A stretch of 64,000 bases of DNA from Hyunsoonleella jejuensis (GTDB taxonomy: Bacteria > Bacteroidota > Bacteroidia > Flavobacteriales > Flavobacteriaceae). The stretch covers positions 186,001-250,000 of the forward strand of contig NZ_FOFN01000003.1 in the NCBI RefSeq assembly GCF_900111025.1, in the 5' to 3' direction. The translations under genes were made by a program, and so were the position numbers. The notes below the pieces were generated by a model. It saw nothing but the letters and a program-made list of their open reading frames with translations, made no database searches and had not been told where the DNA came from. Every line of letters starts with the position of its first letter. Position 1 is the first letter of the stretch. Of this stretch, positions 4,393 to 60,024 are shown one piece after another.

Positions 4393-4394
4393 TA

Positions 4395-5738: not shown

Positions 5739-5741
5739 AGT

Positions 5742-6965
5742 TTGAAAAGACGCTCATTTATTAAAAAAACAGGAATTGCAACTGTAGGTATTGCAGGTAC
5801 AGGTTATCTATACGGTGGTGTTTTGTCTAATATAAACGCTAATAGCACTATAAATATTGGTGTTATTGGCACAGGAGATCGTGGTGGTGGATTGATGTCA
5901 ATTATCAATTCAATAAAAGGTGTTAATGTTATTGCGGTCTGTGATGTTTTACCGTTTAGATTAAATAAAGGTTTGTCAAAAGCTAATTCAAATCCTATTG
6001 GCTATTTAGATTATCGAAAACTTTTGGATAATAGAGATGTTGATGCTGTTATTGTAGCAACACCATTTAATACACATTCTAAAATAGCAATAGATGCACT
6101 AGATGCTGGTAAACATGTGTATTGCGAAAAAACCTTGGCTAAAGGTTATGATCGCATAGAAGCGCTAGTAAATAAAGCAAATCAATCTAAACAGATATTT
6201 CAAACGGGGCATCAGTACCATAGTTCGAGGTTATATACACATGTGGTGGATTTAATTCAACAAGGGAAAGTCGGTAATATTACTGCATTCGAATGTCAAT
6301 GGAATAGACATGGAAATTGGAGAAGACTAGTTCCAGAACCAAAGTACGAAAAAGCAATAAATTGGAGAATGTATAGAGAATTCTCAGGTGGACTTACTGC
6401 TGAGTTGTGCTCTCATCAAATAGATTTTGTTAATTGGGTACTTAATGAAACTCCTAATCAAGTTATGGGCGTTGGTGGAGTTGATTATTGGAAAGACGGT
6501 AGAGAAACCTATGACAATGTACATTTAATGTATAGCTACCCAAAAGGAATAAAAGCAAAATTTACATGCCTTACCAGTAATGCTAAAGATGGCTATCAAA
6601 TAAAAGTAATTGGAGACAAGGGAACCATTATTATTGATACTAAAAATGCATGGTTTTATCCAGAAGGTATAAAGAAGAATAAAGTGGTCACGGATGTCGA
6701 TGGTGTTAGTGGAGCTACAGCACATTGGGATAAGGAAAAAGGTTCTAAAATAAATCTAGAGCATTTAGATCCAAGTAAACAAGCATTACTTGATTTTAAA
6801 ACTGCAATAAAAGATAATACAAAACCCATATCAGATCTAACTACTGGAGCAAAAGCTGCTATTTGCGTTCAAATGGGGCTTGATGCTATGTACAATAATA
6901 AGATCGTTAAATGGAATAAAGATATATTTCCAAAGCTACAACAGACGAGAATAATAGAAAGGTAA
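5742..6965 (+). CDS. Second Tat-exported Gfo/Idh/MocA-family oxidoreductase
   Basis: 407 residues, starting at a TTG codon 3 bases after the previous stop. That start is supported because it supplies the twin-arginine signal (KRRSFIKKTGIATVG), while the next in-frame ATG would cut into the Rossmann fold. The motif is EKT at 129-131 instead of EKP, keeping Lys130. LCSHQIDFVNWVL contains the usual histidine of the C-terminal domain. It pairs with the preceding oxidoreductase and the DUF1080 protein. The last residues (after about FPKL) overlap, in another frame, a remnant of a sialate O-acetylesterase-like gene. The natural C-terminus may therefore have been altered by the deletion that made the remnant. 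Confidence 0.85.
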   Translation: MKRRSFIKKTGIATVGIAGTGYLYGGVLSNINANSTINIGVIGTGDRGGGLMSIINSIKGVNVIAVCDVLPFRLNKGLSKANSNPIGYLDYRKLLDNRDVDAVIVATPFNTHSKIAIDALDAGKHVYCEKTLAKGYDRIEALVNKANQSKQIFQTGHQYHSSRLYTHVVDLIQQGKVGNITAFECQWNRHGNWRRLVPEPKYEKAINWRMYREFSGGLTAELCSHQIDFVNWVLNETPNQVMGVGGVDYWKDGRETYDNVHLMYSYPKGIKAKFTCLTSNAKDGYQIKVIGDKGTIIIDTKNAWFYPEGIKKNKVVTDVDGVSGATAHWDKEKGSKINLEHLDPSKQALLDFKTAIKDNTKPISDLTTGAKAAICVQMGLDAMYNNKIVKWNKDIFPKLQQTRIIER

Positions 6966-19069: not shown

Positions 19070-21709
19070 ATGACAAAGGAGCTCAAAGCTTTTTATTATT
19101 TACTGAGTCTTCATTTTTTTGCAATTCCTTTTGTTTATGGTCAAACATTAAGTCATGAGCAGCTTATTACAAATAATGAAATAATAATTGTTGACAGAAC
19201 AGGTGTTTCAAATGATACAGAGACCCCGGTTACTTTTGGTAAGCTTGAATTTTTAAATGCACTTAAGGCAACAGCAGTAAATATTTCGAAAACCGAAGAA
19301 TGGTCTGGATTAAATAACAAAGTGTTTTTGGTTTTAGGGTCTTCACAAGATAGTCTAGTAAAGAGTTTATTGGCTGATAAGTTAAATAGTTTAAAGAATA
19401 AACCCGAAAGTGTATTTTATCAATGGGTTGATGTAGATGCCGGTAAGGCTCTAGTAATAGGAGGTACAGATTTTAAGGGAACAATGTATGCCTTTAATGA
19501 AATATCTGAACAGATAAAAGACAAAGGATTATCTGCTTTGATTAATTTAGAAAACACTTTGGAATTTCCAGATAATAAAGTGCGAGGTTTAGATCGTTTT
19601 ATTAAAGATGAAAACGATGACGAATGGTTCTTTTCTGAAGAATTTTGGCAGTATTATGTCCAACAGCTAGCAAAAAACCGTTTTAACAGGTTAACACTTA
19701 TTACAGGTTATAATGATGGAAAAAAAGAAGACTTCATGATACCTGTTTATCCTTATTTTTTTCAAGTTCCAGGTTTTGAAAACATAGTGCTCAAAAAGAA
19801 TTTAACAAAAACACCTGAGGCATATACGAATCAATTAAGAAGGATAGGAAAGATAAGTCATAATTATGGGCTTGAGTTTGTATTCGGAATTTGGGGCCAT
19901 GGTAGAAGTGAAAGTCTTATCGACGGGTTACCAGAAAACGCAAATCAGTATACTGAATATTGTTCTAAAGGCATGCGAGAATTATTAAAAAGAGTGCCTG
20001 AAATTGATGGTATTCAACTTCGTGTAAATTATGAGTCAGGTGTTGGCGGGTTTGGAAATACCGCAGATGAATTTTGGAAGGAGATAATTTATGCCATAGG
20101 AAAAGCTAATAGCAATAGAAATGGTAATCTGTTTTTAGATATTAGAGCAAAAGGGTTAACTAATAATATACGTAAATGGGCTACTGAAACTAAGATTGAT
20201 TTTACTGTGACAAGTAAATATACATGGGAAGGTGTAGGGCTCCCTTACCATCCATTGCAAATGCGAAAAGCGGAATTAGACTTAATCAATAATTTTGATA
20301 AACGACAACGTTATGGGTATGCCGATTTTTTAAACGAATCGCGCAATTTTGATTTTATTTATCGTTTATGGGGCATTGGTACCACAAGAATGTTCACTTG
20401 GGCAGATCCTGATTATGTAAAACGATTTTCGCATTCTACGAGTTTTGGTGATAGTAAAGGATTTCAAGTTACACCGCCCATGGCTAGAAAAGATAATACG
20501 TGGCCTCTGTTTTCAGATAAATCAATGGTTTATTATCAATGGGAAGACCAACGCTACTGGGCTTGGTATCGATTATTTGGAAGGTTGGGCTATTCCACTA
20601 AAACCAATCCTGAAGTGTGGCAAAGAACGTTTAAAGAACATTACGGTAAAGCGCACCAAAAAATGTCAGACGCATATGCAGCAGCAGGCAAAGTATTGCC
20701 ACTAATTACATCATCTCATCTTACGAATCATCCAGCCAACTATAATTGGGCTGAAATGGATAGTGGTGGCGCTCTTTTTAATGCTCATAATACAAACCCG
20801 CTTCATAAATCAAAAAATAGAACATATCAATCTGCAGAGCCAGGAGACCCTGGAATGTTTTATATAATTAGTGATTATGTGCAGGATGTGCTTAGTAATA
20901 CCATACAGCCTAAGATAACGCCAATTCAATTAGCAGATTACTATAAAAAAATAGCTGATGATATATCAGAAAATATACTATCTATAAAAGAGGAAGATAT
21001 TCCAAATCAATTTCAAAAGGAATACAAAACCAATGTTTTAGATTTAACAATAACATCAGCACTTTCAATGTATCATGCAGAAAAAATTATGGCATCTCTA
21101 AATTATGTGTTTTTTGAAGAAACAAAAAACAAGGAATATTTACATTTAAGTATTCTGCATTTAGAGAAGGCAAAGTTAAGTTGGGGCGCTATTGTAAATG
21201 CCACAAACAAAATTTACCATTCATCTCCACGTTTCTTGCATGACAATGGTACTTGGAAAGATAGGCTAATAGAACTGGAAAAAGACTTAGATAGCCTTAT
21301 TGAAATAAATGGAAATTCTAAACAAATTACATTACAAAATAAAACTCGCGCATTTGGAAAAACCAGTATAACATTTAGTAATGGTTTTGATGCTGTGGTT
21401 CCAAGTGCAATTACGTTAAAAGATTCTTTACAAGTAATTTTTAAAAGTAATAAGTTCGTTAAAGAATCTCAAATCCCTAGAGTACATTATAGAATGGCTG
21501 ATATGACTTTGGGAGTATTTAATAAGCAAAAGATGATTTGGAACGGGAGTAATTATATTGCTCAAATCCCTCTAGAAAATCTTAATCCAGATTATGATTT
21601 ACTTGTTTATTTCACGTGTATTACAACTAACGAAGAGGTTGTTGTATATCCTGGGATATTTAATAAAAAACAGAATGAACCATACTATACTATTGAAATT
21701 GAAGAATAA
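19070..21709 (+). CDS. Unassigned 879-aa secreted protein with GH67/GH115-like architecture
   Basis: Signal peptide ending near PFVYGQ (residue 25). Residues about 30-165 form an alpha/beta domain (VFLVLGSSQDSLV, KALVIGGTDFKGTMYAFNEIS) like the N-terminal domains of GH20, GH67 and GH115 enzymes. A TIM-barrel-like part follows: VRGLDRFIKDENDDEWFFSE, LAKNRFNRLTLITGYN, EIDGIQLRVNYESGVGG, FLDIRAKGLTNNI, SKYTWEGVGLPYHP. The C-terminal third is helical, then beta-rich (about 780-879). Since ulvan carries glucuronic and iduronic acid, a uronidase is a reasonable guess, but I do not recognise a defined family and cannot name catalytic residues with certainty. A sulfatase gene follows 55 bases later and is probably co-transcribed from operator copy 4. 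Confidence 0.6.
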   Translation: MTKELKAFYYLLSLHFFAIPFVYGQTLSHEQLITNNEIIIVDRTGVSNDTETPVTFGKLEFLNALKATAVNISKTEEWSGLNNKVFLVLGSSQDSLVKSLLADKLNSLKNKPESVFYQWVDVDAGKALVIGGTDFKGTMYAFNEISEQIKDKGLSALINLENTLEFPDNKVRGLDRFIKDENDDEWFFSEEFWQYYVQQLAKNRFNRLTLITGYNDGKKEDFMIPVYPYFFQVPGFENIVLKKNLTKTPEAYTNQLRRIGKISHNYGLEFVFGIWGHGRSESLIDGLPENANQYTEYCSKGMRELLKRVPEIDGIQLRVNYESGVGGFGNTADEFWKEIIYAIGKANSNRNGNLFLDIRAKGLTNNIRKWATETKIDFTVTSKYTWEGVGLPYHPLQMRKAELDLINNFDKRQRYGYADFLNESRNFDFIYRLWGIGTTRMFTWADPDYVKRFSHSTSFGDSKGFQVTPPMARKDNTWPLFSDKSMVYYQWEDQRYWAWYRLFGRLGYSTKTNPEVWQRTFKEHYGKAHQKMSDAYAAAGKVLPLITSSHLTNHPANYNWAEMDSGGALFNAHNTNPLHKSKNRTYQSAEPGDPGMFYIISDYVQDVLSNTIQPKITPIQLADYYKKIADDISENILSIKEEDIPNQFQKEYKTNVLDLTITSALSMYHAEKIMASLNYVFFEETKNKEYLHLSILHLEKAKLSWGAIVNATNKIYHSSPRFLHDNGTWKDRLIELEKDLDSLIEINGNSKQITLQNKTRAFGKTSITFSNGFDAVVPSAITLKDSLQVIFKSNKFVKESQIPRVHYRMADMTLGVFNKQKMIWNGSNYIAQIPLENLNPDYDLLVYFTCITTNEEVVVYPGIFNKKQNEPYYTIEIEE

Positions 21710-29021: not shown

Positions 29022-30935
29022 ATGAAAAGACGTAACTTTATACAACTATCAACACTGGCAGGAGTAGGGATTTCTCTTCCGATAGCTGGAATTTTAAATG
29101 CATGTGAAAATCATCCTGAACACTCTCTAGAATTCAAAAATCTAATTTCAGGTCTTTTGAAAGACTGGTGTGATGGGATGATAAAAGTACAAATTAATAA
29201 CCCTTCTAATTTGGAAGAACATGGCGCTTTAGGTTGCCCGTCGTGTTCACATATACATGGTCGATGTATGGATGCGGTGTATCCATTTTTATATATGGCT
29301 GATATATCAGGAGATGTAAAATATACTGAAGCTGCCAAATTAGTTATGACTTGGGCAGAAAATAATGTTTCTCAAGATGATGGGGCTTGGACCGTAATTA
29401 AAAATCCGAAATCTTGGAAAGGAATTACCGTTTTTGGAGCAATAGCTTTAGCAGAAGCATTGCATTATCATGGTCATGTTTTAGACGAGGCAACGCAAAA
29501 AGAATGGACAGCACGTTTAGAAAAAGCAGGACAATTTGTATATGATACATTTACTATAGACTTTACTAATATTAATTATCCAGGAACAGCCGTCTATGGT
29601 TTAAATTTAATGGGTAATATTTTAAACAGAGACGATTTTAAAGCCAAGAGTAAAAAATTAGCTTCTGAGGTAAAAGCATATTTTACTGCAAATGAAGGCT
29701 TATTGTTTGGAGAATGTAAAAAGAGTTCTAGTAAACTAAGCGAAAAAGGATTACATGGTGTTGATTTAGGATATAATGTAGAAGAAACCTTAAACAGTTT
29801 AGTAATGTACGCGCTAAAAGAAAAAGATGAAGAGCTACTACAAATATTAACAAAATCGTTGAACAGTCATCTAGAATTCATGTTACCAGATGGAGCTTGG
29901 GATAACAGTTGGGGTAACAGAATGTATAAGTGGAGCTATTGGGGAAGCCGCACCTGTGACGGAAGTCAACCAGCCTTTGGGATGATGGCGCACATAAATC
30001 CTGCTTTTGGAACAGCTGCTGTAAAAAACACGGAACTGTTGCAACGCTGTACAGCAGATGGACTTATTCATGGAGGGCCTGGTTTTGTGGAAGCTGGTAT
30101 TCCTCCTTGTGTACACCACACGTTTACGCATGCGAAACCTTTAGCAGCATTGTTAGACCACTGGGGTCATTTACCAAAAATTAATTCAAACGCTAGTTTA
30201 CCAAGAGCTACCGCAGATGGTGTAAAGCACTTTAAAGATTTAGATGTATACCTTTTTGCAAGAGGGGATTGGAGAGGAACTGTAAGTGCTTACGATGCAG
30301 AGTACCATTACAAAGAAGATTTTCGTCAAGCTTCTGGTGGTGCATTAGGTCTATTATATCACAATAAAGTGGGTTTGCTATGTGCTGCTAGTATGGCAAA
30401 GTATCAAATGGTTGAGAAAAATAATCAACAAGCACAACCAGGAAAAGATATTTGTTTAACACCTCGGGTTGAAACATTTATAGATGGAGTTTGGTACACA
30501 AATTTATACGATTTACCAGCTACAGTTACTTCTAAAGATGAAAATGACACTATTGAATTGGTTGCAGATGTAAAATTGAAAAATGTAGCTAGAGAAGAAG
30601 TAAAAGAAACAGCTTCTAAATTCGATATTAGATATAAGTGTGATGTAAATCAAACGGTAATTTCAGTAAAAACAGACCAGAATATTACTTCGCCAACTGC
30701 TTTTGTATTACCTATTGTTTCGCCAAACAATGAGGTTGTTTCTAGTGTAAGCGATACGGAAGTTACCATTCAAAAACCTGAAGGATTAGTTACTATTAAA
30801 GCCAATGCTCCAATTAAATTGAAGACGCTACAAAGTAAAAGAACCTTTAATATGGTGCCTGGTGTAGAAGCTCTACCTTTCGAAATCTTTTTTGATGAAA
30901 AGAAGGTGTTAGAAATAACAATTACAATAAGCTAA
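29022..30935 (+). CDS. Heparinase II/III-like protein, candidate oligo-ulvan dehydratase or lyase
   Basis: 637 residues. The N-terminus has a twin-arginine motif (MKRRNFIQLSTLAGVG) and a possible lipobox at NAC. The first ~380 residues look like an (alpha/alpha) toroid (YPFLYMADISGDVKYTEAAKL, WKGITVFGAIALAEALHYH), with CVHHTFTHAKPLAALLDHWG and a Trp-rich WDNSWGNRMYKWSYWGSRTCDG. The rest is beta-rich. The locus order next to PL28 matches the Formosa agariphila ulvan locus, where the neighbour is an oligosaccharide dehydratase (P29_PDnc). I infer that this is its counterpart, which would make unsaturated uronate ends for GH105. Sequence alone only supports the general fold. Its stop directly abuts the stop of the convergent AraC gene. 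Confidence 0.6.
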   Translation: MKRRNFIQLSTLAGVGISLPIAGILNACENHPEHSLEFKNLISGLLKDWCDGMIKVQINNPSNLEEHGALGCPSCSHIHGRCMDAVYPFLYMADISGDVKYTEAAKLVMTWAENNVSQDDGAWTVIKNPKSWKGITVFGAIALAEALHYHGHVLDEATQKEWTARLEKAGQFVYDTFTIDFTNINYPGTAVYGLNLMGNILNRDDFKAKSKKLASEVKAYFTANEGLLFGECKKSSSKLSEKGLHGVDLGYNVEETLNSLVMYALKEKDEELLQILTKSLNSHLEFMLPDGAWDNSWGNRMYKWSYWGSRTCDGSQPAFGMMAHINPAFGTAAVKNTELLQRCTADGLIHGGPGFVEAGIPPCVHHTFTHAKPLAALLDHWGHLPKINSNASLPRATADGVKHFKDLDVYLFARGDWRGTVSAYDAEYHYKEDFRQASGGALGLLYHNKVGLLCAASMAKYQMVEKNNQQAQPGKDICLTPRVETFIDGVWYTNLYDLPATVTSKDENDTIELVADVKLKNVAREEVKETASKFDIRYKCDVNQTVISVKTDQNITSPTAFVLPIVSPNNEVVSSVSDTEVTIQKPEGLVTIKANAPIKLKTLQSKRTFNMVPGVEALPFEIFFDEKKVLEITITIS

Positions 30936-41060: not shown

Positions 41061-42470
41061 ATGAAAGTAGGATTATTTGGTATCGGGTTAGATACCTATT
41101 GGCCTCAGTTTGAAGGTTTATTAGAACGTTTAGAAGGTTATCAACAGCAAATTGCTAATAAGATGGAAGGCTTTGGGGCCGAAGTGATAAATGTTGGTTT
41201 GGTAGATTCTCCTGAGGTAGCAAGAGAGAAAGCACAGATATTAAAAACAGAAGATGTAGATATCTTATTTTTATATGTATCTACTTATGCTTTGTCATCT
41301 ACAATATTACCTGTGGTACAAAAAGTGAAATGCCCTGTAATAATTTTAAATATTCAACCCGTAGCAGCCATTGATTACGAGAACTTCAATAAACTAGGTG
41401 ATAGAGGTAAAATGACAGGTGAATGGTTGGCACATTGTCAAGCATGCTCTGTACCTGAATTTGCTAATGTACTCAATCGTTCAGGAATTGATTATGAATT
41501 TGTTACTGGTTATTTGGATGAACAATCGGTTTGGGATGATATCCAAGACTGGATAGATGCAGCTAAGGTGGCGGCTATAATGCGAAATAACAGACTCGGC
41601 GTTTTAGGACATTATTACTGTGGCATGCTTGATGTGTATTCAGACTTAACCAAGCAATCTTCAGCTTTTGGGACACATATAGAAATTGTTGAAATGTGTG
41701 AAGTTAAAAAATATCGAGATGCTGTAACCGCGGAAGAGATAGAGACAAAAATAGCTGAATTTCGAAGTATTTTTGAAGTTATTGATGCCTGTGAACAATC
41801 AGAATTAGAGCGCGCTGCTAAAACTTCTATAGCATTAGATAAGTTGGTTGAAAATCATAATTTGGGGTCTATGGCTTATTATTATGAAGGGGAAACGGCT
41901 AACGAATATGAAAATATAGTAACATCTGTCATCGCAGGAAATACGCTACTAACAGGTAAAAATGTTCCAGTTGCAGGAGAGTACGAAGTGAAAAATGCCC
42001 AAGCCATGAAAATCATGGATGCCTTTGGTGTTGGTGGTTCGTTTTCTGAGTTTTATGCCATGGATTTTAATGATGATATCGTTATGTTAGGTCATGATGG
42101 TCCAGCGCATTTTGCAATTGCAGAAGGGAAAGTGCAATTGGTACCGTTACCAGTATATCATGGCAAACCAGGAAAAGGCTTATCTATTCAAATGACAGTG
42201 CAACATGGTCCCGTGACGTTGCTTTCAGTAGTAGAAGGTAAAGATGATGTGTTTTTATTAGTCGCAGAAGGCGAATCTGTAGAAGGTCCAGTGCTTCATA
42301 TAGGAAATACCAATAGCCGTTACCGTTTTTCAATAGGAGCCAGAGCATTTATGAACCAATGGTCTAAACAAGGGCCTTCACATCATTGCGCTATTGGTGT
42401 TGGGCATATAGCTAGTAAAATTGAGAAATTGGGAAGTTTACTGAACCTAAGAGTAGTTAGAATTTGTTAA
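41061..42470 (+). CDS. L-arabinose/L-fucose isomerase-family protein
   Basis: 469 residues without signal peptide, 3 bases after the GH78 stop. The fold family is indicated by the start MKVGLFGIGLDTYWPQFEGL, the N-terminal flavodoxin-like segment (VDILFLYVSTYALSSTILPV), GVLGHYYCGMLDVYSDLTKQ, and C-terminal pieces GHDGPAHFAIAEGK and GPSHHCAIGVGHIASKIEKLG that carry the metal-ligand histidines. Such enzymes convert aldoses to ketoses with a divalent metal. It is one of only two likely cytoplasmic catabolic enzymes here and lies at the end of the rhamnosidase operon. It may therefore isomerise rhamnose or another released sugar. It is not a recognisable RhaA. Substrate is inferred only from context. 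Confidence 0.75.
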   Translation: MKVGLFGIGLDTYWPQFEGLLERLEGYQQQIANKMEGFGAEVINVGLVDSPEVAREKAQILKTEDVDILFLYVSTYALSSTILPVVQKVKCPVIILNIQPVAAIDYENFNKLGDRGKMTGEWLAHCQACSVPEFANVLNRSGIDYEFVTGYLDEQSVWDDIQDWIDAAKVAAIMRNNRLGVLGHYYCGMLDVYSDLTKQSSAFGTHIEIVEMCEVKKYRDAVTAEEIETKIAEFRSIFEVIDACEQSELERAAKTSIALDKLVENHNLGSMAYYYEGETANEYENIVTSVIAGNTLLTGKNVPVAGEYEVKNAQAMKIMDAFGVGGSFSEFYAMDFNDDIVMLGHDGPAHFAIAEGKVQLVPLPVYHGKPGKGLSIQMTVQHGPVTLLSVVEGKDDVFLLVAEGESVEGPVLHIGNTNSRYRFSIGARAFMNQWSKQGPSHHCAIGVGHIASKIEKLGSLLNLRVVRIC

Positions 42471-45017: not shown

Positions 45018-46946
45018 ATGAAGAAATCACCTGTTTTTATACTTTGTCTTTGGCTTGCTTTTCACTTTTCGGTATTTGCACAGCGAGACTTTTTGACCAA
45101 GTCTTGCACACTAGAAGAACTCACAGAAATGCTAGTATTAGATCAAAAATGGGTTACATATCCAGATTATTCAAATCGTAATGCTTGGGACAAGTTGTTT
45201 GGAATACATAAAGAAAGCTTGATTCAAAGTGGAGAAGGGTATTTAGATTATGATTGGCAGGTGGTTAGAGCAACTCATTATCTTGATTATACCAGAACAG
45301 GTAATCGTAATACTATGCAAGATCCTTATTTCGATAATCAGGATGCACTAAGTACGTTAATTTTAGCAGAGTTGGCTGAGGGTAGTGGGCGGTTTCTAGA
45401 TCAGATTATTGATGGTATATTTATGAATTGTGAGATGACAAGTTGGGTGTTATCAGCACATTTTAAAATTTCGGCTAAAGAAGTTAAAAACCATTTCCCC
45501 GATATAAACGAAAACTTAATTGGATTGTATTCCTCGCAAACTGGAGCTATGTTATCTTGGGCACATTATTTTTTTAAAAATGAGTTTGACAAGGTCAATC
45601 CACTTATTTCTGAACGTATTCAATTTGAAGTAAAAAAGCGCATACTCGATCCATATATGAATATGAATTATTGGTGGACAGCACTTCCGCCTTATGCCAA
45701 TAAAAAGCCGAAAGTTAACAACTGGAATCCGTGGTGTAATGCCAATGTATTGCAGTGTTTTATGTTGATGGAAAATTATAAAGATAAATTGGCTGAAGCT
45801 GTGTATCGTTCCATGCAATCTGTAGATATGTTTATTAACGAAGATAAAGACGGTGCTTGCGATGAAGGTCCTGGCTATTGGGGCGTTGCGGCAGGAAAAA
45901 TGTACGATTATTTGTCATTATTAGAAAAACTAACAGCCGGAAAAATTTCCATATTCGATAAACCTGAAATCAAAGCCATGGCAGAATACGTTTATCGCGC
46001 CAATGTTGGCAATGGTTGGGTTGTTAATTTTGCAGATGCTTCTGCAAAGGGACGTGGAAATCCTTATTTTATTTACAGTTTTGGTGAGGCAGTAGGTAGT
46101 CAAGATATGATGCAATTTGCCGCCTATTTGAAAAAAGAAAATCCTGAGACAACTATTGCTTACAATAGAGATATTGATAGAGCTTTAAGAAATGCAACCA
46201 TATCTGAAGAACTAGACAATACAGATCCCGTTTTTAAAGTCCAAGAGTATTCATGGTATCCTAAAACAGAATACTGTTTTATGAGTAATGAGGAAGGTCT
46301 TTTTCTGGCTACAAAAGGAGGGTATAATCAAGAAAACCATAACCATAATGATGTTGGGTCATTTATGTTTTATATAAATGCCACACCCATATTTATTGAT
46401 ACAGGAGTAGGTTCTTATACCGCCAAAACATTTGGGCCAGATCGTTATACTATTTGGACCATGCAAAGTAATTATCACAATGTACCTTTAATTAATGGTG
46501 TTGCCCAAAGCCCAGGAACAAAATTTAAAGCAACTAATTCAAGTTTTAATAAAAATAAAAAAACCTTTACTACAGATATTGCCAAAGCCTATCCAGAGCA
46601 TGCGGGTGTAAAATCATGGATGCGTACTTATCAATTAAAGGAAAACGGATTAAGTATAAAAGAGAAATTTTCGCTAAAAAAAACAATAGAACCTAATCAA
46701 CTTAATTTTATGATTTGGGGTGAAGTTAATATTGAAACACCAGGTAAAGTTATTATTAAAGTTGAAGAAGAAACTGTAGAGCTTATTTATAATGCAAATC
46801 TGTTAAGGCCCTCTATTGAAACCATTCAACTTAACGAAAAAAAGTTAAGCGGTGTTTGGAGCGATACCATATACAGATTATCATTTAACGCCCTAACACT
46901 TCAAAAGGAAGGTGAATACACGTTTCAAATTATTAAGGCAAAATGA
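45018..46946 (+). CDS. Heparinase II/III-family polysaccharide lyase-like protein
   Basis: 642 residues, signal peptide ending near FAQ (residue 22). The N-terminal ~370 residues are a helical toroid (YLDYDWQVVRATHYLDYTRT, WWTALPPYANKKPKVNNWNPWCNANVLQ, DEGPGYWGVAAGKMYDYLSLLEKL). The heparinase-type beta domain follows, with ENHNHNDVGSFMFYINATPIFIDTGVG, where the NHNHND histidines are typical of the family, and NYHNVPLINGVAQSPG. Lyases of this fold (including families with ulvan or glycosaminoglycan activity) cut at uronic acids. It may be an exo-lyase for ulvan oligomers. The family cannot be fixed by eye. Its stop overlaps the next start by 4 bases (ATGA). Confidence 0.82.
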   Translation: MKKSPVFILCLWLAFHFSVFAQRDFLTKSCTLEELTEMLVLDQKWVTYPDYSNRNAWDKLFGIHKESLIQSGEGYLDYDWQVVRATHYLDYTRTGNRNTMQDPYFDNQDALSTLILAELAEGSGRFLDQIIDGIFMNCEMTSWVLSAHFKISAKEVKNHFPDINENLIGLYSSQTGAMLSWAHYFFKNEFDKVNPLISERIQFEVKKRILDPYMNMNYWWTALPPYANKKPKVNNWNPWCNANVLQCFMLMENYKDKLAEAVYRSMQSVDMFINEDKDGACDEGPGYWGVAAGKMYDYLSLLEKLTAGKISIFDKPEIKAMAEYVYRANVGNGWVVNFADASAKGRGNPYFIYSFGEAVGSQDMMQFAAYLKKENPETTIAYNRDIDRALRNATISEELDNTDPVFKVQEYSWYPKTEYCFMSNEEGLFLATKGGYNQENHNHNDVGSFMFYINATPIFIDTGVGSYTAKTFGPDRYTIWTMQSNYHNVPLINGVAQSPGTKFKATNSSFNKNKKTFTTDIAKAYPEHAGVKSWMRTYQLKENGLSIKEKFSLKKTIEPNQLNFMIWGEVNIETPGKVIIKVEEETVELIYNANLLRPSIETIQLNEKKLSGVWSDTIYRLSFNALTLQKEGEYTFQIIKAK

Positions 46947-48495: not shown

Positions 48496-49584
48496 ATGCG
48501 TGTACTGTTTTGTGTTGTATTGGTTATAGTTTTCAGCTCTGGGTTGTTTATATGCAATGCGCAAACTAATCGCGATACGATTTACCCAATTTTTCAATTT
48601 CCACAAAACAAAATGCCTCGAATAGATGGTGACTTTTCCGATTGGAATCTGGTTCCAGATACCTATGCCATTGGCTTAGACCAAATGAAAGAAAGTATAA
48701 ATGGTATCGGGTTTAATCTGGATGCAACCGATTTAGATATTAGCGTTAAAGTGGGATGGGTAAAAGACTTGAACCGATTATATTTTTATGTTGAAGTTTT
48801 TGATGATTTCTGGGAATTTGAACAACTTGATATTAAACAGGATATTTTTGAATTGGTCGTTGACGCCGATGTTTCTGGTGGTAATTTTATAAAAAAATGG
48901 AACGCCAACAAAAAATATATTCCTATCGAAGAATTGCACTTTAGAGGTCATGGAGCGCATGCTCAAAACTATCATGTTTTTATGCCTGCCGTAAATAAGG
49001 ACTGGGCCATGGTTTGGGGTAATACGCCTTGGATTAAAGACTTTCCTTATGCTAATGCTGCTTATCAGCATAATTTAAAACAGGGTAAATCTGGAGCACT
49101 TAAAATGGAATTTTGGATTACACCATTCGATTATGCCGCTATTGAGGGTATCAATCGTTCCGCTATTTCAACGCTTAAAGAAAATGAAATTATTGCTATG
49201 TCTTGGAGTGTTATCGATTATGATAATGATAATAAAGAAAGAAAGGATTTTACAAGTCTTTCGCATAACATTAATATGATTCATGATGCCGATTTTATGA
49301 ATGCATTTAGATTAATGCCACTGATAAAGGAATTAGCACCTGAACTTCAAGCCAATTGGTCTTTTGTTGAGGTAAATAGAGAAAGACGTGTTTTTGCTTT
49401 TAAAGATGAATCTGTGGGTGACGTTGAAAAGTGGACTTGGGATTTTGGAGATGGAACAACTTCTAATGAACAAAATCCTGTTCATCAATATAATTCTGCA
49501 GACCACTGGACTGTGGTACTCACAGTAGAAAATAAAAACGGTAAATCCATACGTTCTAAAGTTTGGGATGTGGTTACAAAATAG
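48496..49584 (+). CDS. CBM9-like domain plus PKD domain secreted protein
   Basis: 362 residues with a signal peptide (cleavage near CNAQ, residue 22). Residues about 30-265 resemble a CBM9-type sugar-binding beta-sandwich (MPRIDGDFSDWNLVPDTY, RLYFYVEVFDDFWEFEQ, KMEFWITPFDYAAIEG). Residues about 280-360 are a PKD repeat (WTWDFGDGTTSNEQNPVHQY, HWTVVLTVENKNGKSI). There is no catalytic motif, lipobox or T9SS tail, so its location after export is unclear. Placed between a sulfatase and an amidohydrolase fusion, it may be a periplasmic glycan-binding helper. Confidence 0.75.
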   Translation: MRVLFCVVLVIVFSSGLFICNAQTNRDTIYPIFQFPQNKMPRIDGDFSDWNLVPDTYAIGLDQMKESINGIGFNLDATDLDISVKVGWVKDLNRLYFYVEVFDDFWEFEQLDIKQDIFELVVDADVSGGNFIKKWNANKKYIPIEELHFRGHGAHAQNYHVFMPAVNKDWAMVWGNTPWIKDFPYANAAYQHNLKQGKSGALKMEFWITPFDYAAIEGINRSAISTLKENEIIAMSWSVIDYDNDNKERKDFTSLSHNINMIHDADFMNAFRLMPLIKELAPELQANWSFVEVNRERRVFAFKDESVGDVEKWTWDFGDGTTSNEQNPVHQYNSADHWTVVLTVENKNGKSIRSKVWDVVTK

Positions 49585-49596
49585 ATATAATGTTTT

Positions 49597-51384
49597 ATGA
49601 CATTTAATTTAAAAGTATATGTAATTTTTCTTTCGCTTTTGGCGTTTGTCTTATCCGCTTTGGGTCAAAACAATACTGCTCGAATAGATGCACATATTCA
49701 CCTTTACGATATTAATCGAGACAGTAGTTTTACTTTTTTAAACAAACAAAATAAAGATACCAACCCAGAGCTATTTCGTCCGCATTTAGAAAAAGACTTT
49801 TTAGAGGTAGCCAATTCATCAGGTATTAACTATGCATATCTTGTTGAAGCAAGTACCAGAAGGGAAGATAACTTTTGGCTATCTCAAATAGCTAGCGAAT
49901 CAAAGCATATACTCGGTTTTACAGTAAATTTAAATCCTTTAGATGCTAATTTTAAAAGTGATTTAGATACTTTAAAAAAGAATACCAAGTTTAGAGGTGT
50001 TCGTCCAAGATATAAAGGATTGGATTTTTCAAATGCTGAAGTATTTAAACAATTAAAAGAATTAGACAAACGCAATTTAGTACTTGAAATTAATGGGTTA
50101 AAACATGTAGCAACCATCGCTAAACAATACCCAAACATGCCTATTGTAGTCAATCATTTTGGAGGGGTAAAATTAAAAAATGGCGTATTGCAAAATGAAG
50201 AAAATTACAAAAAAGCACTTCAAGAAGTGGCATCCTTTCCAAATGTATTTATGAAGATTTCTGCGCTTCATACCCTTTCTGGAAAAAATCCAGCTCCAAA
50301 AAAGTTAAAATATTACAAACCTTTATTAGATGCAAATCTTGAGGCTTTTGGTCCAAATCGAGTGTTATTTGGTAGCAATTGGCCTTTATCTGGTTTACGA
50401 GGAAAGTACAACAATGCAATCCAAATTCTTGAGGCATATTGTTCAACTCGAAATGATTTAAGTGAAGAACAACTCTTTTTCAATAACATTATAAAAGCTT
50501 ATGGATTAACAAATCCTACCATTCCTACATTTATGGAATTGAGTAATGATGAACTTCGTTTAAAATTAGATTTAAGAAGAGGTGGCGCCATAGCTTACAT
50601 TTCTAAATCAGATATTGATAGAAATATTGTAAATATTCATGATGAGGGGAGATACATTCAGCAATCCTATTATGGAGGTAACATTATTAACAGACAACAA
50701 GAAGGGCAAAAAAAGGCATGGTCTCCATGGTCTTGGAATCCCATTCAGGTAGGCGATTGCTATCGTAACCGAGCAGAAATTCTGGAATATAAACAAGAAG
50801 GCCATACATTGTATGTGAAATGTATCCCAATGCTATGGGACATGAAAAACAAACCTGCAGAAGCCATCATGGAACAATGGACAACTCTAGAAGGTAATGT
50901 GATTAAAGTTCAGAATAAGTTAACTTGCCACAGAACAGATACTATTTATGGCGAAGGAAAAACGCACAACCAAGAGTTGCCAGCAGTGTATCCAATATCA
51001 GCTTTAAATAATTTGTATTCTTATTTTGGAGACAAGCCTTTTACAGGTGCGCCTCTAAGTAAACCAAAAGTGGTGAATCTGCGAAGTGGTTTTTGGGGCA
51101 AATACAAAAACAATATGGTTACCGAAAATTGGATGGCTTTTGTAAATGACGATTTATGGGGCATGGGAGTATACACACCTACATGTTCTAACTTTTTGGC
51201 TGGAATGGCAAAAGATCCAGGGTATGAAGCCTATGATAGTGCAACATCATATATAGCGCCAATAAACAAGGCTACACTCAATAAAGACACGGTTTATGAA
51301 TTTGATTATTATTTAATAATTGGTAATTTGAGGGTTATAAGAGAAGATGTGTATGATTTAAATAAATTAATAAAAAGTAAATAA
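49597..51384 (+). CDS. Exported amidohydrolase (sugar-lactonase-like) fused to an unrecognised beta-rich domain
   Basis: 595 residues, signal peptide ending near ALGQ (residue 24). Residues about 27-310 form an Amidohydro_2 TIM barrel: ARIDAHIHLYD, LGFTVNLNPLDAN, FRGVRPRYKG, MPIVVNHFGG and VLFGSNWPLSG. This subgroup includes L-rhamnonolactonase and L-fuconolactonase-like enzymes. Where many relatives have GSDWP, this protein has GSNWP, so the usual metal or catalytic aspartate is an asparagine. Residues about 315-595 are a separate beta-rich domain (GGAIAYISKSDIDRNIVN, EGRYIQQSYYGG, AWSPWSWNPIQVGD, YEFDYYLIIG) that I do not recognise. The fusion in an exported protein is unusual, since sugar lactonases normally work in the cytoplasm. 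Confidence 0.7.
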   Translation: MTFNLKVYVIFLSLLAFVLSALGQNNTARIDAHIHLYDINRDSSFTFLNKQNKDTNPELFRPHLEKDFLEVANSSGINYAYLVEASTRREDNFWLSQIASESKHILGFTVNLNPLDANFKSDLDTLKKNTKFRGVRPRYKGLDFSNAEVFKQLKELDKRNLVLEINGLKHVATIAKQYPNMPIVVNHFGGVKLKNGVLQNEENYKKALQEVASFPNVFMKISALHTLSGKNPAPKKLKYYKPLLDANLEAFGPNRVLFGSNWPLSGLRGKYNNAIQILEAYCSTRNDLSEEQLFFNNIIKAYGLTNPTIPTFMELSNDELRLKLDLRRGGAIAYISKSDIDRNIVNIHDEGRYIQQSYYGGNIINRQQEGQKKAWSPWSWNPIQVGDCYRNRAEILEYKQEGHTLYVKCIPMLWDMKNKPAEAIMEQWTTLEGNVIKVQNKLTCHRTDTIYGEGKTHNQELPAVYPISALNNLYSYFGDKPFTGAPLSKPKVVNLRSGFWGKYKNNMVTENWMAFVNDDLWGMGVYTPTCSNFLAGMAKDPGYEAYDSATSYIAPINKATLNKDTVYEFDYYLIIGNLRVIREDVYDLNKLIKSK

Positions 51385-51418: not shown

Positions 51419-54400
51419 ATGTTCTTAAAAAAAAATATAACAATATTAATATTTTCATCAATATTGTTTTTTACCCTATGGTCTTGTAATAATACTAAAA
51501 AAAACGAAATAGTAAAATCTGAATTTATATTACCTACAGAAGATAATTCCGTGTGGTGCTATTGGTATTGGATTAATGATGATATTTCTAAAGTAGGCAT
51601 CACCAAAGATTTAGAAGCGATGAAAAAAGCAGGCATTGGTGGTGCATTAATAGGGAATATTAATCCTGCTCACAAAGATGGTAAAGTACCCATGTTAAGT
51701 GAAGAATGGTGGAGTCATATGGTACATGCTGTCGAGGAAGGAAAAAGAATTGGTGTAGATATTGGTGTATTTAATTGCCCAGGATGGAGCCAAAGCGGCG
51801 GGCCTTGGGTAGATTATACAAAAGCTATGCGATATCTTACGTATAGTGAAACGAAAGTTTCAGGAGGAAAACAACTTTATTTAAAATTACTACAACCTAA
51901 AAAGGAATTTCAGGACACCCATACTTTCGCTTTCAAATCTTCGGTAATTGAAGAAAACAGTACACAATTTATTCCTACGAAAATAAGTGCTAATTGGAAG
52001 GATGTAAACACAACTATTTTGAATGATGGAAATAAAGAAGATGATACCAGTTTTGAGCTCAAAAAAGGAGAAGCTTTAGAAATTAGTTTCCAACTTTCTC
52101 AGCCAATAACAGCGCGCTCTATTACTATAATCCCAAGCAGATCCTTCAAATGTAATATAATATTATCAGCTATTATAGATGGTGAAGAAAAAACAATTAA
52201 AGAGTTTCATTTTGATCGTTTTCGCATTACGCCAAATGTAGCATCCATTGAAACAGGAGATTTTGCCACCGTTTTACCTGAGACTAAAGCGCAACAATTC
52301 AAATTGAGGTGTACCAATTTTGTAAGTAAGGAAAAGGAATATGGCTTTGCTGAAATTAATATATCTGAAGCACCAGTGTTGGATAAATATATCGAGAAAC
52401 AACTCGGAAAGATGCATTCTACTCCCAAACCTGATTGGGATACTTATATTTTTAAAACACAGGAAGCACTTGAAAATCAAAGTTTATCTATAAATCCAGA
52501 TGAGGTGATTAATTTAAGTCATAAGCTTGATGAAAATGGAACACTAAATTGGGATGCACCAGCAGGAAACTGGACAATTATACGCATGGGTATGACACCA
52601 ACAGGTACAAAAAATGCTCCGGCGGCGCCACAAGGTGTTGGTTATGAAATTGATAAGATGAATAGTGATTTGGTACAGTACCATTTTGATAATTTTGTGG
52701 GCGAGTTGTTAAAACGAATTCCAGAAGAAAGTAAATCGGCTTTTAAATATGTGGTGGCTGACAGTTACGAACAAGGATCTCAAAACTGGACGGATGGGTA
52801 TGAAGTAAAATTCAAAGAAAAATTCGGATACGACCCTGTACCATTTTTACCAGTACTTTCAGGAAGAATTGTAGGTAGTGTTGATCAATCCGAACGCTTT
52901 TTATGGGATTTACGTCGTTCTATTGCAGATGATGTGGCTTATGAGTATGTAGGTGGGTTAAGAAAAGCGAGTAATAAACATAATTTAAAAACCTGGTTAG
53001 AAAACTATGGGCACTGGGGGTTTCCAGGAGAATTTATGATGTATGGTGGGCAATCCGATTTGATTTCTGGAGAATTTTGGAACGAAGGTACATTGGGTAA
53101 TATAGAATGTAAAGCGTCTTCTTCAACATCACATACCTATGGCAAACCCATTACTTCTGCTGAGGCGTTTACATCGTCTCGTAAAGCTTATCTAAGGCAT
53201 CCAGCTATGCTTAAAAAACGAGGCGATTGGGCTTTAACAGAAGGCATCAATCATTTTGTATTGCATTTGTACATTCAACAGCCAGATAATAATAGAAAAC
53301 CAGGAATGAATGCTTGGTTTGGTACAGAATTCAATCGTCACAACACTTGGTTTAGTCAAGCAGATACCTATTTTGACTATCTGCGTCGCTGTCAACACCT
53401 TTTACAACAAGGAAAATATGTTGCAGATGTGTGTTACTTTATTGGAGAAGATGCACCAATAATGACTGGTGTTCGTCAACCAGAACTCCCTAAAGGATAC
53501 TCTTATGATTATATCAATGCAGAAGTAATTCTAAATAGACTTACAGTTAAAGATGGTCGTTTTGTTTTACCAGATGGGATGTCTTATAAGGTAATGGTAT
53601 TGCCACCATTTAAAACAATGCGTCCTCAATTGTTAAAAAAAATAGAGCAATTGGTACAACAAGGAGGAGTAGTTTTAGGTCCAAAGCCGGAAAAATCACC
53701 AAGTCTGCAAAACTATCCTGCTAGTGATGATGAAGTTAAAAATATTGCAAGCAAGTTATGGGCTGGAACTTATAAAGATGGTAAAATGTCAGTTCAATAT
53801 GGCAAAGGAAAAGTAATGGATGGCTTCGAATTGTCTGAAGTATTTGCAGATTTAAATTTAGGTAAAGATGTTGATGTTTCAGAGGATACACCAATACTTT
53901 GGATACATAGAAATATGCCAGGTATGGATATTTATTTTATTACTAATCAAAGTGATAAAACTATAGAATTATCTCCTGTTTTTCGTGTGAATAAAAAAAT
54001 GAAACCACAGTTGTGGGACGCTGTAAATGGTGAAATGCGAGCTTTACCTGATTATGAAATTACAGATACAGGTATAAAAGTACCCTTAAAAATGAAAGCT
54101 GTGCAAAGTTGGTTTGTAGTGTTTGTAAAAGAGGATAATAATGTTGGAGTAAAACCTGCATATACTGCAAATTTTCCTGAATATCAAAAGTTAAAAACCA
54201 TTAAAACACCATTCGAAGTCGATTTTAAAAATAAAGACATTGCACCTAAAGAACCTATAATATTTAATGAATTAATAGACTGGAGAAACTCTGAAGATGA
54301 GCAAATACAATATTATTCAGGAACTGCCTTTTACAAAACTAATTTCAACATAGATGAACTGCCTAAAAATCAGGATATCTATTTGAATCTAGGGGAAGTT

Positions 54401-54676
54401 TCAGTAATGGCAAAAGTAAAATTAAATGGCAAAGATTTAGGCGGTGTTTGGATGGCTCCTTATCGACTAAATATATCTGAGACACTAAAAAAAGGAGAAA
54501 ATCAATTAGAAATTGAAGTGGTGAATCTTTGGAGAAACCAATTGATAAAAGACAAACAACGTTCAGAAGATGAAAAATATACTTGGTTGGTTATTGATGA
54601 TATCAAACCAAATTCAAAATTACAGCCTTCAGGATTGTTAGGGCCAGTAACTCTTGAAACAATAAATAATAATTGA
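51419..54676 (+). CDS. GH106-like alpha-L-rhamnosidase lipoprotein (paralogue 2)
   Basis: 1085 residues, lipobox WSC near residue 22. It has NCPGWSQSGGPWVDYTKAMRYL near residue 120 and a preceding WCYWYWINDDISKVGITKDL. Candidate catalytic glutamates are in VADSYEQGSQNW and SAEAFTSSRKAY. ALTEGINHFVLHLYIQQP and a C-terminal sugar-binding sandwich (YLNLGEVSVMAKVKLNGKDL) complete the family layout. The C-terminal end EIEVVNLWRNQLIKDKQ is nearly repeated in the remnant at 60051-60239. A single base separates its stop from the next start, so it is co-translated with paralogue 3. Confidence 0.85.
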   Translation: MFLKKNITILIFSSILFFTLWSCNNTKKNEIVKSEFILPTEDNSVWCYWYWINDDISKVGITKDLEAMKKAGIGGALIGNINPAHKDGKVPMLSEEWWSHMVHAVEEGKRIGVDIGVFNCPGWSQSGGPWVDYTKAMRYLTYSETKVSGGKQLYLKLLQPKKEFQDTHTFAFKSSVIEENSTQFIPTKISANWKDVNTTILNDGNKEDDTSFELKKGEALEISFQLSQPITARSITIIPSRSFKCNIILSAIIDGEEKTIKEFHFDRFRITPNVASIETGDFATVLPETKAQQFKLRCTNFVSKEKEYGFAEINISEAPVLDKYIEKQLGKMHSTPKPDWDTYIFKTQEALENQSLSINPDEVINLSHKLDENGTLNWDAPAGNWTIIRMGMTPTGTKNAPAAPQGVGYEIDKMNSDLVQYHFDNFVGELLKRIPEESKSAFKYVVADSYEQGSQNWTDGYEVKFKEKFGYDPVPFLPVLSGRIVGSVDQSERFLWDLRRSIADDVAYEYVGGLRKASNKHNLKTWLENYGHWGFPGEFMMYGGQSDLISGEFWNEGTLGNIECKASSSTSHTYGKPITSAEAFTSSRKAYLRHPAMLKKRGDWALTEGINHFVLHLYIQQPDNNRKPGMNAWFGTEFNRHNTWFSQADTYFDYLRRCQHLLQQGKYVADVCYFIGEDAPIMTGVRQPELPKGYSYDYINAEVILNRLTVKDGRFVLPDGMSYKVMVLPPFKTMRPQLLKKIEQLVQQGGVVLGPKPEKSPSLQNYPASDDEVKNIASKLWAGTYKDGKMSVQYGKGKVMDGFELSEVFADLNLGKDVDVSEDTPILWIHRNMPGMDIYFITNQSDKTIELSPVFRVNKKMKPQLWDAVNGEMRALPDYEITDTGIKVPLKMKAVQSWFVVFVKEDNNVGVKPAYTANFPEYQKLKTIKTPFEVDFKNKDIAPKEPIIFNELIDWRNSEDEQIQYYSGTAFYKTNFNIDELPKNQDIYLNLGEVSVMAKVKLNGKDLGGVWMAPYRLNISETLKKGENQLEIEVVNLWRNQLIKDKQRSEDEKYTWLVIDDIKPNSKLQPSGLLGPVTLETINNN

Positions 54677-58098: not shown

Positions 58099-60024
58099 AT
58101 GAAGTCATTAGTTATTAAATTTAATTTATTTGTTTTTTCATTTCTTTATTTTAGCAACCTTTCTGCTCAAGAAGCACCTTCTTGGGTCGATTTCTGTACT
58201 AACAGAGAAAGTGGAAAGATGAGAAATAGTGTATTGTTAGATTATTCGTATGCTGGGTATCACTTTTCTGAAAAACCAATTCCAGATTTATCAACGTGGA
58301 ATACCATTTCAGTAATTGATTATGGAGCTACACCTAACGATGATACTTATGATGAAGTTGGAATTCAATCAGCCATTGATGCTGCAGAAGCTAGTGGAGT
58401 ACCTACCGTAGTGTATTTTCCATCGGGAAGATACAAAGTAGGTAGCGAGAAGAATAAAGGCAAACCTATTGAGGTGAACAAAAGTTTTATTGTGTTGAAA
58501 GGTGCAGGATCAGGGACAGATGGAACAGAAATTTTTGCAGATAAACACGGAGATGTAGCTCTAAGGTGGAACACCCCATGGCAATTTTTGTTTGAACCTT
58601 GGAAACGTTCTTCAACTAAAATAGCATCCATTACAAGTAGTATTCAACGAGGTGACAAGACTGTGGAAGTTGACAACAGTACCGCTATTGTTGCAGGTCA
58701 GTTAGTGGAATTAGCACATCAAGGTGTTGAGAATTTGGAGTTAAACTTACCTGGACTAGAATACAGCTCTAAGTGGCCATCCATTAATAAAAACGGTATT
58801 ATGGTAATGGAAAAACATTTGGTCACAAAAGTGAAAGGGAATACCATTTACTTTAAAAACCCAGTGAACTATAACGTGCCATTAAATGGAGACTATGCTA
58901 GTATTAAAACTTTTGAGCCAATAGAAGAAGTTGGCGTACAGGATATTCTATTTACTAGTGCATGGAAAGATTATCCTGAAGATTTTGTTCATCACGCAAA
59001 TAACATTGTTGATTATGCTTGGCGTGCAGTCCGTTATAAAAATGTATATAATAGTTGGATTAAAAATGTAAAATTTCGAGATTGGAATGACTGCATACAA
59101 ATTTCTGAAAGTTTTTCGGTTACGGTAAAAGACATACAAGTTTCTGGTAAGCAAGGGCATGCATCTTATATGGCAGCGGCTTCTACAGGTGTGCTTTTTG
59201 GAAATTGCAAGGATAATGTACCAGTAGGTTTCAATGATGCAGGAGGGCAGGCACATGGACCCGCATTTCAAAGGTCATCTACAGGTTGTGTTTACACTAA
59301 CGTGAAAATGCAAAAACATCAATCTGTAGATTGTCATAGCGAAACTCCTTATGGTAATTTGTTTGATAATATTCAGGGAGGTTGTTTTAGAGGAAATGGT
59401 GGCTCAGAAAAAGTATATCCAAATAGTGGACCAGATCTTGTTTTTTGGAATTTTGTTCATTCCTCTAATTATGCAATACATGAATTTGATTTTTGGAGTA
59501 TCAATAAGCGCCGATTACACACCTATGCAAAACCAAAGTTTGTAGGCTTTACTTCTCCTGGAGAGGATATTTCTTTTAAAAACGTAGGGTTGGATGAGTT
59601 GCATGGTACACAAGTATATCCACAATCCCTATTTGATGCTCAATTGCAATTACGATTGTATGACGTTTATGCTAGTGCCTCTTCACAAAAAAAAGGATGT
59701 CCTGCTTTAAATGTATTAAATAACAAAGTAAATGATTTTTGGAGTCCAAAGAACAGCTTGGAAGATAGTTATTTGATGTTGGATTTTGGTACAAATAGAA
59801 GTGTCAATTCTATTTTTTTAAAGGAAAATCAAAAATCAATAAAGAAATTTAAACTTGAATGTTGGATTGATGGTGGATGGGTGAGTTATATGCCAAAACA
59901 ATCTGCTAATACAGACAACGCTTGGGAACTAGATAGCATGGTCGTCACACGGAAAGTAAAACTCGTAATTGAAGAAACTTACCCTAATAGGCCTATTCAA
60001 ATTATTGAATTTAAAGCTCTTTAA
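58099..60024 (+). CDS. Right-handed beta-helix protein (pectate-lyase superfamily, DUF4955-like)
   Basis: 641 residues, signal peptide ending near LSAQ (residue 24). The segment VIDYGATPNDDTYDEVGIQSAIDAAEASG with VYFPSGRYKVG is the classic N-terminal turn of pectate-lyase-superfamily beta-helices. Helix coils continue to about residue 470 (RYKNVYNSWIKNVKFRDWNDCIQ, CVYTNVKMQKHQSVDCHSETPYGN, DLVFWNFVHSS). The C-terminal part resembles DUF4955 and a small discoidin-like end (YLMLDFGTNRSVNSIFLKEN). It may be a lyase or hydrolase for a uronate- or galacturonate-containing part of the glycan; no catalytic triad can be named. The gene seems to have been inserted between a GH106-like gene, of which only the tail remains, and its former upstream neighbour. 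Confidence 0.75.
   Translation: MKSLVIKFNLFVFSFLYFSNLSAQEAPSWVDFCTNRESGKMRNSVLLDYSYAGYHFSEKPIPDLSTWNTISVIDYGATPNDDTYDEVGIQSAIDAAEASGVPTVVYFPSGRYKVGSEKNKGKPIEVNKSFIVLKGAGSGTDGTEIFADKHGDVALRWNTPWQFLFEPWKRSSTKIASITSSIQRGDKTVEVDNSTAIVAGQLVELAHQGVENLELNLPGLEYSSKWPSINKNGIMVMEKHLVTKVKGNTIYFKNPVNYNVPLNGDYASIKTFEPIEEVGVQDILFTSAWKDYPEDFVHHANNIVDYAWRAVRYKNVYNSWIKNVKFRDWNDCIQISESFSVTVKDIQVSGKQGHASYMAAASTGVLFGNCKDNVPVGFNDAGGQAHGPAFQRSSTGCVYTNVKMQKHQSVDCHSETPYGNLFDNIQGGCFRGNGGSEKVYPNSGPDLVFWNFVHSSNYAIHEFDFWSINKRRLHTYAKPKFVGFTSPGEDISFKNVGLDELHGTQVYPQSLFDAQLQLRLYDVYASASSQKKGCPALNVLNNKVNDFWSPKNSLEDSYLMLDFGTNRSVNSIFLKENQKSIKKFKLECWIDGGWVSYMPKQSANTDNAWELDSMVVTRKVKLVIEETYPNRPIQIIEFKAL

Follow-up and report, generated by a model that had tools for sequence, protein, structure and literature searches.

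The breakdown of sulfated, rhamnose-rich glycans from algae is encoded by large gene loci, and for some of their genes no step has been assigned. The locus described here encodes a protein in which an amidohydrolase barrel with altered motifs is joined to a domain of no catalogued family, and the question is which half is the working part and on what it acts. The open reading frame (ORF; 49597-51384, forward strand, 595 aa) was found in a stretch of 64,000 nucleotides from Hyunsoonleella jejuensis (Flavobacteriaceae), a marine bacterium of the seaweed-degrading kind, and this whole stretch is referred to as the window. The initial annotation, made from the sequence alone, had described an exported amidohydrolase with GSNWP in place of GSDWP, fused to about 280 residues of an unknown domain.

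The 595-residue protein and its locus

A scan of species genomes yielded seven loci (L001-L007). The features on which the analysis rests are listed by window coordinates and strand.

49597..49665, +, signal-peptide-like N-terminus, residues 1-23, judged by eye
49642..50511, +, in-frame cassette that holds the amidohydrolase barrel and has no counterpart at this position in L002 or L004
49684..50508, +, Amidohydro_2 / COG3618-type barrel, residues 30-304 (Pfam, NCBIfam, Foldseek)
49687..49704, +, DAHIHL, HxH motif kept (H33, H35), present in all four fused proteins
50371..50385, +, GSNWP, residues 259-263 (N261), Asn in all four fused proteins and Asp in all 12 comparators
50527..51381, +, C-terminal domain, residues 311-595, possible supersandwich fold, without Pfam, NCBIfam or PDB sequence match
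50641..50661, +, DEGRYIQ with invariant D349, G351, R352 and Q355 (21-member alignment)
50734..50757, +, WNPIQVGD with invariant W380, P382, Q384, G386 and D387 (21-member alignment)
50869..50991, +, stretch with MEQW (E426, W428) and QELPAVY (Q459, E460, P462, Y465) (21-member alignment)
45018..46946, +, PL33-like lyase gene, PDB sequence matches 8r6z etc., best E 7.4e-220
51419..54676, +, GH106 alpha-L-rhamnosidase gene (Pfam PF17132, 718.9 bits)

The signal-like N-terminus was recognised by eye, and the full-length model, which is of low confidence, placed a helix at residues 3-18. The coding DNA of this region is partly common to the barrel-less genes of L002 and L004. Read in this way, the 595-aa protein would be exported.

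The gene of a PKD-containing protein (48496-49584) ends 12 bases upstream of the ORF, and the GH106 gene starts 34 bases downstream of it. The PKD protein consists of a PKD domain and an N-terminal part without assignment, and is present in L001-L004 and L046. Because the window carries genes for a PL28 ulvan lyase, an S1 sulfatase-GH78 fusion, GH78, GH106, GH3, GH43 and GH88 enzymes and sulfatases, the locus is called an ulvan-type utilisation locus. The ulvan pathway of Formosa agariphila (PMC8511951) likewise has a PL28 lyase, an S1 sulfatase-GH78 fusion (P36), GH3, GH43, GH78 and GH88 enzymes and sulfatases; the words amidohydrolase and lactonase are absent from the main text of that paper, and the 595-aa protein is not among the enzymes of its Discussion. 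A literature search on ulvan with amidohydrolase or lactonase, with most subscription journals outside its scope, gave no description of such a protein. The architecture is genuinely new and the domain family uncatalogued; the locus is of a well-studied kind.

The gene at 45018-46946 is a clear relative of the PL33 lyases 8r6z and 8r70-8r75 (PMC11848413). The window gene sits in an ulvan-type locus; the word ulvan is absent from the main text of that paper. Assignment of this gene as the ulvan dehydratase P29_PDnc was dropped, as its PDB matches are PL33 lyases.

The amidohydrolase barrel

Residues 30-277 matched Amidohydro_2 (PF04909) with 90.1 bits (cut-off 26.4, E 2.7e-25), which bears out the annotated amidohydrolase, and residues 29-304 scored 88.8 bits against the NCBIfam L-fuconolactonase model NF052480, below its equivalog cut-off of 400. 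The closest solved relative was 4dlf, a COG3618 amidohydrolase of Burkholderia multivorans (E 5.2e-12 by sequence, 7.7e-12 by Foldseek), and 4dlf, 4do7 and 6uvz topped the Foldseek list obtained with the full-length model (E 8e-12 to 2e-11), a model of low mean confidence in which the barrel was usable and the C-terminal domain poor. Compared with 4dlf/4do7, which is known as L-fucono-1,5-lactonase and to which the N-terminal half was most similar in both sequence and fold, the H. jejuensis protein is exported-looking and fused, has N261 for Asp, and lacks the GxRH His and DHxxKP.

The barrel was further compared with the 12 best relatives found (25-31% identical), of which five came from one genus and two of those were near copies; they were labelled fuconolactonase-like from their motifs and, in four cases, also from neighbours read by eye. 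All 12 are open frames of 275-292 aa, in agreement with the annotated view that relatives are normally cytoplasmic, single-domain enzymes. GSDWP, GxRH, DHxxKP and KxSG were each present in every comparator. The four fused proteins carry GSNWP, GVRP, NHFG and KISA at these places, confirming the annotated GSNWP, and retain HxH, GVR and the His of NHFG. None of the four has any of the L-fuconolactonase-type hallmarks, namely the GSDWP Asp, GxRH and DHxxKP.

PDB titles list complexes of LigI, a related pyrone-dicarboxylate hydrolase, that were solved with the variants D248A and D248N. D248 is presumably the Asp of GSDWP, and since disabled enzymes are typically solved as complexes, these structures fit a catalytic role of that residue. 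The Asn alone is nevertheless no proof of inactivity, because 6uvz, an amidohydrolase 2 of Bifidobacterium longum infantis, natively carries SSNWP, the same Asp-to-Asn change; unlike the H. jejuensis protein, it is a single-domain chain of 258 aa. No tested function was found for 6uvz, and a literature search, which was not exhaustive, found no tested GSNWP lactonase. As reported in passages of PMC7732495, B. infantis has a predicted, induced L-fuconolactone hydrolase, FumD, to which 6uvz might correspond.

Pairwise dN/dS in the barrel was 0.14-0.19 (6 pairs; rough values, dS being >1 in pairs with L005), and the barrel is therefore not decaying but under purifying selection. Judged from its motifs, the barrel is probably a diverged add-on and not an ordinary lactonase. 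Two more amidohydrolases (L063 and L064), 25-26% identical, occur in barrel-bearing genomes.

The barrel was present in four proteins, those of the window, L001, L003 and L005. In L002, L004 and L007 (Hyunsoonleella, with 319 aa, and two Polaribacter), the C-terminal domain is a complete protein of 315-319 aa with its own signal-like N-terminus (by eye); no barrel was found in these loci by tblastn, nor in their genomes at E<=1e-8. When the window was aligned to L002 by BLASTN, the alignment ran through the upstream gene and 45 bases of this gene, ended at 49641 and restarted at 50512 (NPTIP codons), with 82% on both sides; the lengths differ by 825 bases, or 275 codons. Against L004, the alignment stopped at 49655 and restarted at 50512. 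DNA homology thus breaks inside the signal-peptide region and restarts at 50512, with the barrel as an in-frame cassette between the two points. Beyond the group of seven close members, none of the 14 others has the barrel, so that its gain is more probable than its loss. Within the group of seven, the tree required 2 changes with its inner forks open, and no single barrel gain was resolved.

L005 and L007 have no PKD gene at the expected position, and their domain gene starts with a PKD-gene-like signal sequence (MRLL...), which marks the signal-peptide region as a repeated junction. Between the window and L003, dS was 0.19 in the barrel versus 0.96 in the C-terminal domain, a difference that suggests recombination close to the border between the two. 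Identity to L003 (Seonamhaeicola aphaedonensis) per 200 bases was 96-100% for 48800-50200, falling to 93% in the following bin and to 73-89% from 50400 onward. By this pattern of identity, window positions 48800-51384 are a recombination mosaic relative to L003.

The C-terminal domain family and its genomic company

The annotated unknown domain proved to be 285 residues long. It (residues 311-595) had no match to Pfam at E<=1, none to NCBIfam except one chance match (E 0.18), and none to PDB sequences at E<=10; no catalogued glycoside hydrolase or lyase family was thus matched by the C-terminal half in these three collections. Searches of viral contigs, plasmids and PHROGs gave nothing usable, with PHROGs matches only at E >0.2. 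A DUF6807 protein is encoded beside the domain in L018, and profile comparison showed no relation between the two.

Stand-alone homologues, a search for which the initial annotation had proposed, were found, and 21 members were aligned (27-90% identical). Eleven of them are encoded alone (305-343 aa), the barrel is fused to the domain in 4, and the remaining 6 have other extensions; in L006, the domain follows ~160 other residues without convincing Pfam match. The stand-alone homologues are 85-89% identical in close relatives and 59-69% in others. L014, a 28% fragment match with stops (genome G212, E 5.1e-5), was excluded, and L011 and L013 are fragments of a single gene. At E<=0.001, 4 of the 299 genomes from the window's family carried the domain, as did 5 of 395 from the phylum, with the window's genome counted in; at E<=1e-5, it was found in two other families, in 3 of 79 genomes of one and 6 of 147 of the other.

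The alignment had 31 invariant columns, a count to be read with the fact that 13 members came from fetched regions chosen by the motifs GR.[IV]Q and W[ND]P[IV]Q.GD (13/13 regions gave one, and no member was missed in this way), a selection that leans on these motifs. The residues D349, G351, R352, Q355, W380, P382, Q384, G386 and D387, which belong to the two motifs quoted as conserved-looking in the initial annotation, were identical in 21/21, as were Y359, Y406, K408, E426, W428, Q459, E460, P462, Y465, E510, W512 and Y552. No His was invariant or even 90% conserved. Pairwise dN/dS in the C-terminal domain was 0.05-0.07 (6 pairs; again rough, with dS >1 in pairs with L005), and it is the more constrained half (barrel, 0.14-0.19).

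A model of the domain, built from eight sequences of which 7 were close, had a mean pLDDT of 50.8 and a pTM of 0.59. VIA-align comparison of this low-confidence model placed 218 of 999 aligned chains at Z>=8, with the best at Z 12.0. Among these neighbours were GH174 fucanases (Z 11.4 and 11.2; endo-1,3-fucanase 8jd7/9k1g), OpgG/OpgD, and mutarotases or putative aldose 1-epimerases (3k25, 3nre, 2hta); the GH174 fucanases, OpgG/OpgD, YeaD and slr1438 spanned Z 9.5-11.4. We take the neighbour chains to be mostly supersandwich domains of sugar enzymes. In contrast to the galactose-mutarotase-like supersandwich enzymes, the C-terminal domain has no detectable sequence relation to them (E<=10) and no epimerase-type conserved His. 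By Foldseek, no TM-score reached 0.4 among the 50 matches listed, and viral capsid chains came first. From the model, a mutarotase-like supersandwich fold is likely.

A GH106 gene directly adjoins the domain gene in the window, L004, L041, L045 and L046, and in L035 a GH106-like gene just under the cut-off lies beside it. The L035 locus has RhaA and RhaT, and the L041 locus RhaT and an aldolase-dehydrogenase. A rhamnosidase similar to one of the window's was located in the fetched stretch of 12/21 members, with L035 sub-threshold, and in none of 8/21 (L006, L036-L039, L042-L044), among which L006, L037 and L039 are contigs of <8 kb. Since the domain often stands alone near rhamnose-cutting enzymes in relatives, it is probably this half of the protein that is the older one and does the work. 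Algibacter pacificus (G153) carries the fused protein L005 and, ~200 kb apart, a second stand-alone copy (L047, 9585-10526) near GH106 and sulfatase genes.

GH106 (E<=1e-10) was present in 16/19 domain-positive versus 4/20 negative genomes (Fisher p 8.8e-5), being absent from 3/19 positive ones, and in 9/12 versus 4/20 when the seven close genomes were removed (p 0.0035); these p values are only indicative, because the genomes are related and the 20 controls were not random but hand-picked from three families (f1, f4, f17), none from the family of G536. The L006 genome was left out of this test, and G872 was dropped as a duplicate of G153. The mutarotase RhaM (Pfam) was found in 15/19 positive versus 13/20 negative genomes, without clear enrichment, and its gene lies 1-2 kb from the domain gene in G646 and G002. 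The PL33-like gene (E<=1e-20) and the barrel (E<=1e-8) occurred together in 4 genomes and were both missing from 3 (one-sided Fisher 0.029), an association over seven genomes, few and related, one of them with a stated completeness.

Competing readings of the two halves

The initial annotation had offered two readings, a lactonase acting on lactones made by exported oxidoreductases, or a new role in which the second domain is the catalytic part. The first would make the barrel an active exported sugar-lactonase despite its Asn (for instance on L-rhamnono- or uronolactones), with the C-terminal domain only aiding substrate finding. The barrel keeps HxH, GVR and the His of NHFG on a COG3618-type scaffold at dN/dS 0.14-0.19, the natural SSNWP of 6uvz leaves room for such an activity, and Gfo/Idh/MocA oxidoreductases are encoded in the same window. 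However, the GxRH His, DHxxKP and KxSG are changed too in 4/4 fused proteins, the C-terminal domain has no barrel fused to it in 17/21 members, no barrel match at E<=1e-8 was found in the L002, L004 and L007 genomes, and the LigI variants, changed at the presumed GSDWP Asp, were solved as disabled enzymes are. The lactonase reading was therefore weakened, and we consider it improbable. The annotated alternative of a catalytic second domain gained favour from its occurrence alone in 11/21 members, its lower dN/dS and its many invariant polar residues.

What the C-terminal domain does could still be read in other ways. As an exported aldose 1-epimerase-like enzyme, it would interconvert the anomers of rhamnose or of the reducing end of oligosaccharides that the neighbouring rhamnosidases set free, and both its size (~285 aa) with the mutarotase neighbours 3k25, 3nre and 2hta and the GH106, RhaA and RhaT genes nearby agree with this. 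Known aldose 1-epimerases use His and Glu, whereas no invariant or 90% conserved His occurs in the 21 members; the C-terminal half had no Aldose_epim match in Pfam at E<=1, and RhaM, presumably cytoplasmic, already puts a rhamnose mutarotase at hand in 15/19 positive genomes, which leaves the epimerase a quite unlikely reading. A non-catalytic glycan-binding module usable by various partners, an unlikely but slightly better candidate, would fit the finding that the domain is combined with a barrel or with further N- or C-terminal stretches in 10/21 members. Against it, the domain is encoded alone in 11/21, which is unusual for a binding module, its invariant charged residues are dense, and Pfam binding-module profiles were matched neither by the window protein (E<=1) nor by 5 further members (E<=5), so that the second domain corresponds to no known carbohydrate-binding module in Pfam.

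The reading that we prefer places the 595-aa protein in an ulvan-type polysaccharide utilisation locus of this Flavobacteriaceae bacterium. The C-terminal domain would represent an exported carbohydrate-active enzyme family, uncatalogued in Pfam, NCBIfam and the PDB and often encoded alone, which may act outside the cytoplasm with GH106 and GH78 alpha-L-rhamnosidases on rhamnose-containing oligosaccharides. This domain is most likely the working enzyme, with both catalysis and substrate inferred; hydrolysis of a bond adjacent to rhamnose would be more likely than elimination or anomer exchange. Candidate catalytic residues on the mutarotase-like beta-supersandwich would be invariant carboxylates among D349, D387, E426, E460 and E510. 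The barrel, a COG3618 lactonase relative carried as an in-frame cassette behind the signal peptide, has lost several lactonase hallmarks but is still selected, and its probable role is to bind or process a sugar acid connected with the PL33-type lyase of the same genomes. We regard this whole explanation, an exported rhamnose-glycan CAZyme domain with a diverged barrel cassette in an ulvan-type locus, as standing at about even chances. Weighing against it are the weak domain model (pLDDT 50.8, pTM 0.59) with its low Foldseek TM-scores, the lack of a sequence match between the C-terminal domain and any known enzyme, the 3/19 positive genomes missing GH106 and the 8/21 members without a window-like rhamnosidase in their stretch, the fact that invariant residues could also serve ligand binding, and a tree without a single resolved barrel gain over seven genomes, few and related.

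A bolder form of the preferred explanation is tentative and would sooner fail than hold. In it, the domain would be the first recognised group of a new exported supersandwich CAZyme family for rhamnose glycans such as ulvan, and the barrel a neofunctionalised lactonase fold serving the product of the PL33-type lyase, so that the fusion would be a two-step enzyme in an undescribed green-algal branch. The domain family is small, has invariant acids and lies beside GH106 in several Bacteroidota, and it could name one of the steps still without assignment in loci for rhamnose-rich sulfated glycans. In its stand-alone form of ~300 residues, it lends itself readily to assay and crystallography. The fusion is a natural experiment, in which forms with and without the barrel share a domain 85-90% identical, the empty site is clean, and the barrel co-varies with one lyase gene.

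Other genes of the window were noted in passing. At 3001-6965, a 3-keto-disaccharide hydrolase (PF06439) precedes a pair of Gfo/Idh/MocA oxidoreductases, and the three may form a keto-glycoside module. The DUF4955 protein at 58099-60024 scored 249.6 bits against the BT3328-family hyaluronan lyase model, below the 1100-bit cut-off. Large proteins without Pfam match at E 0.001 are encoded at 19070-21709 (879 aa) and 29022-30935 (637 aa), and the product of 41061-42470 is a distant relative of L-arabinose, L-fucose and sulfoquinovose isomerases, with counterparts 93% identical in L002 and 90% identical in L007.
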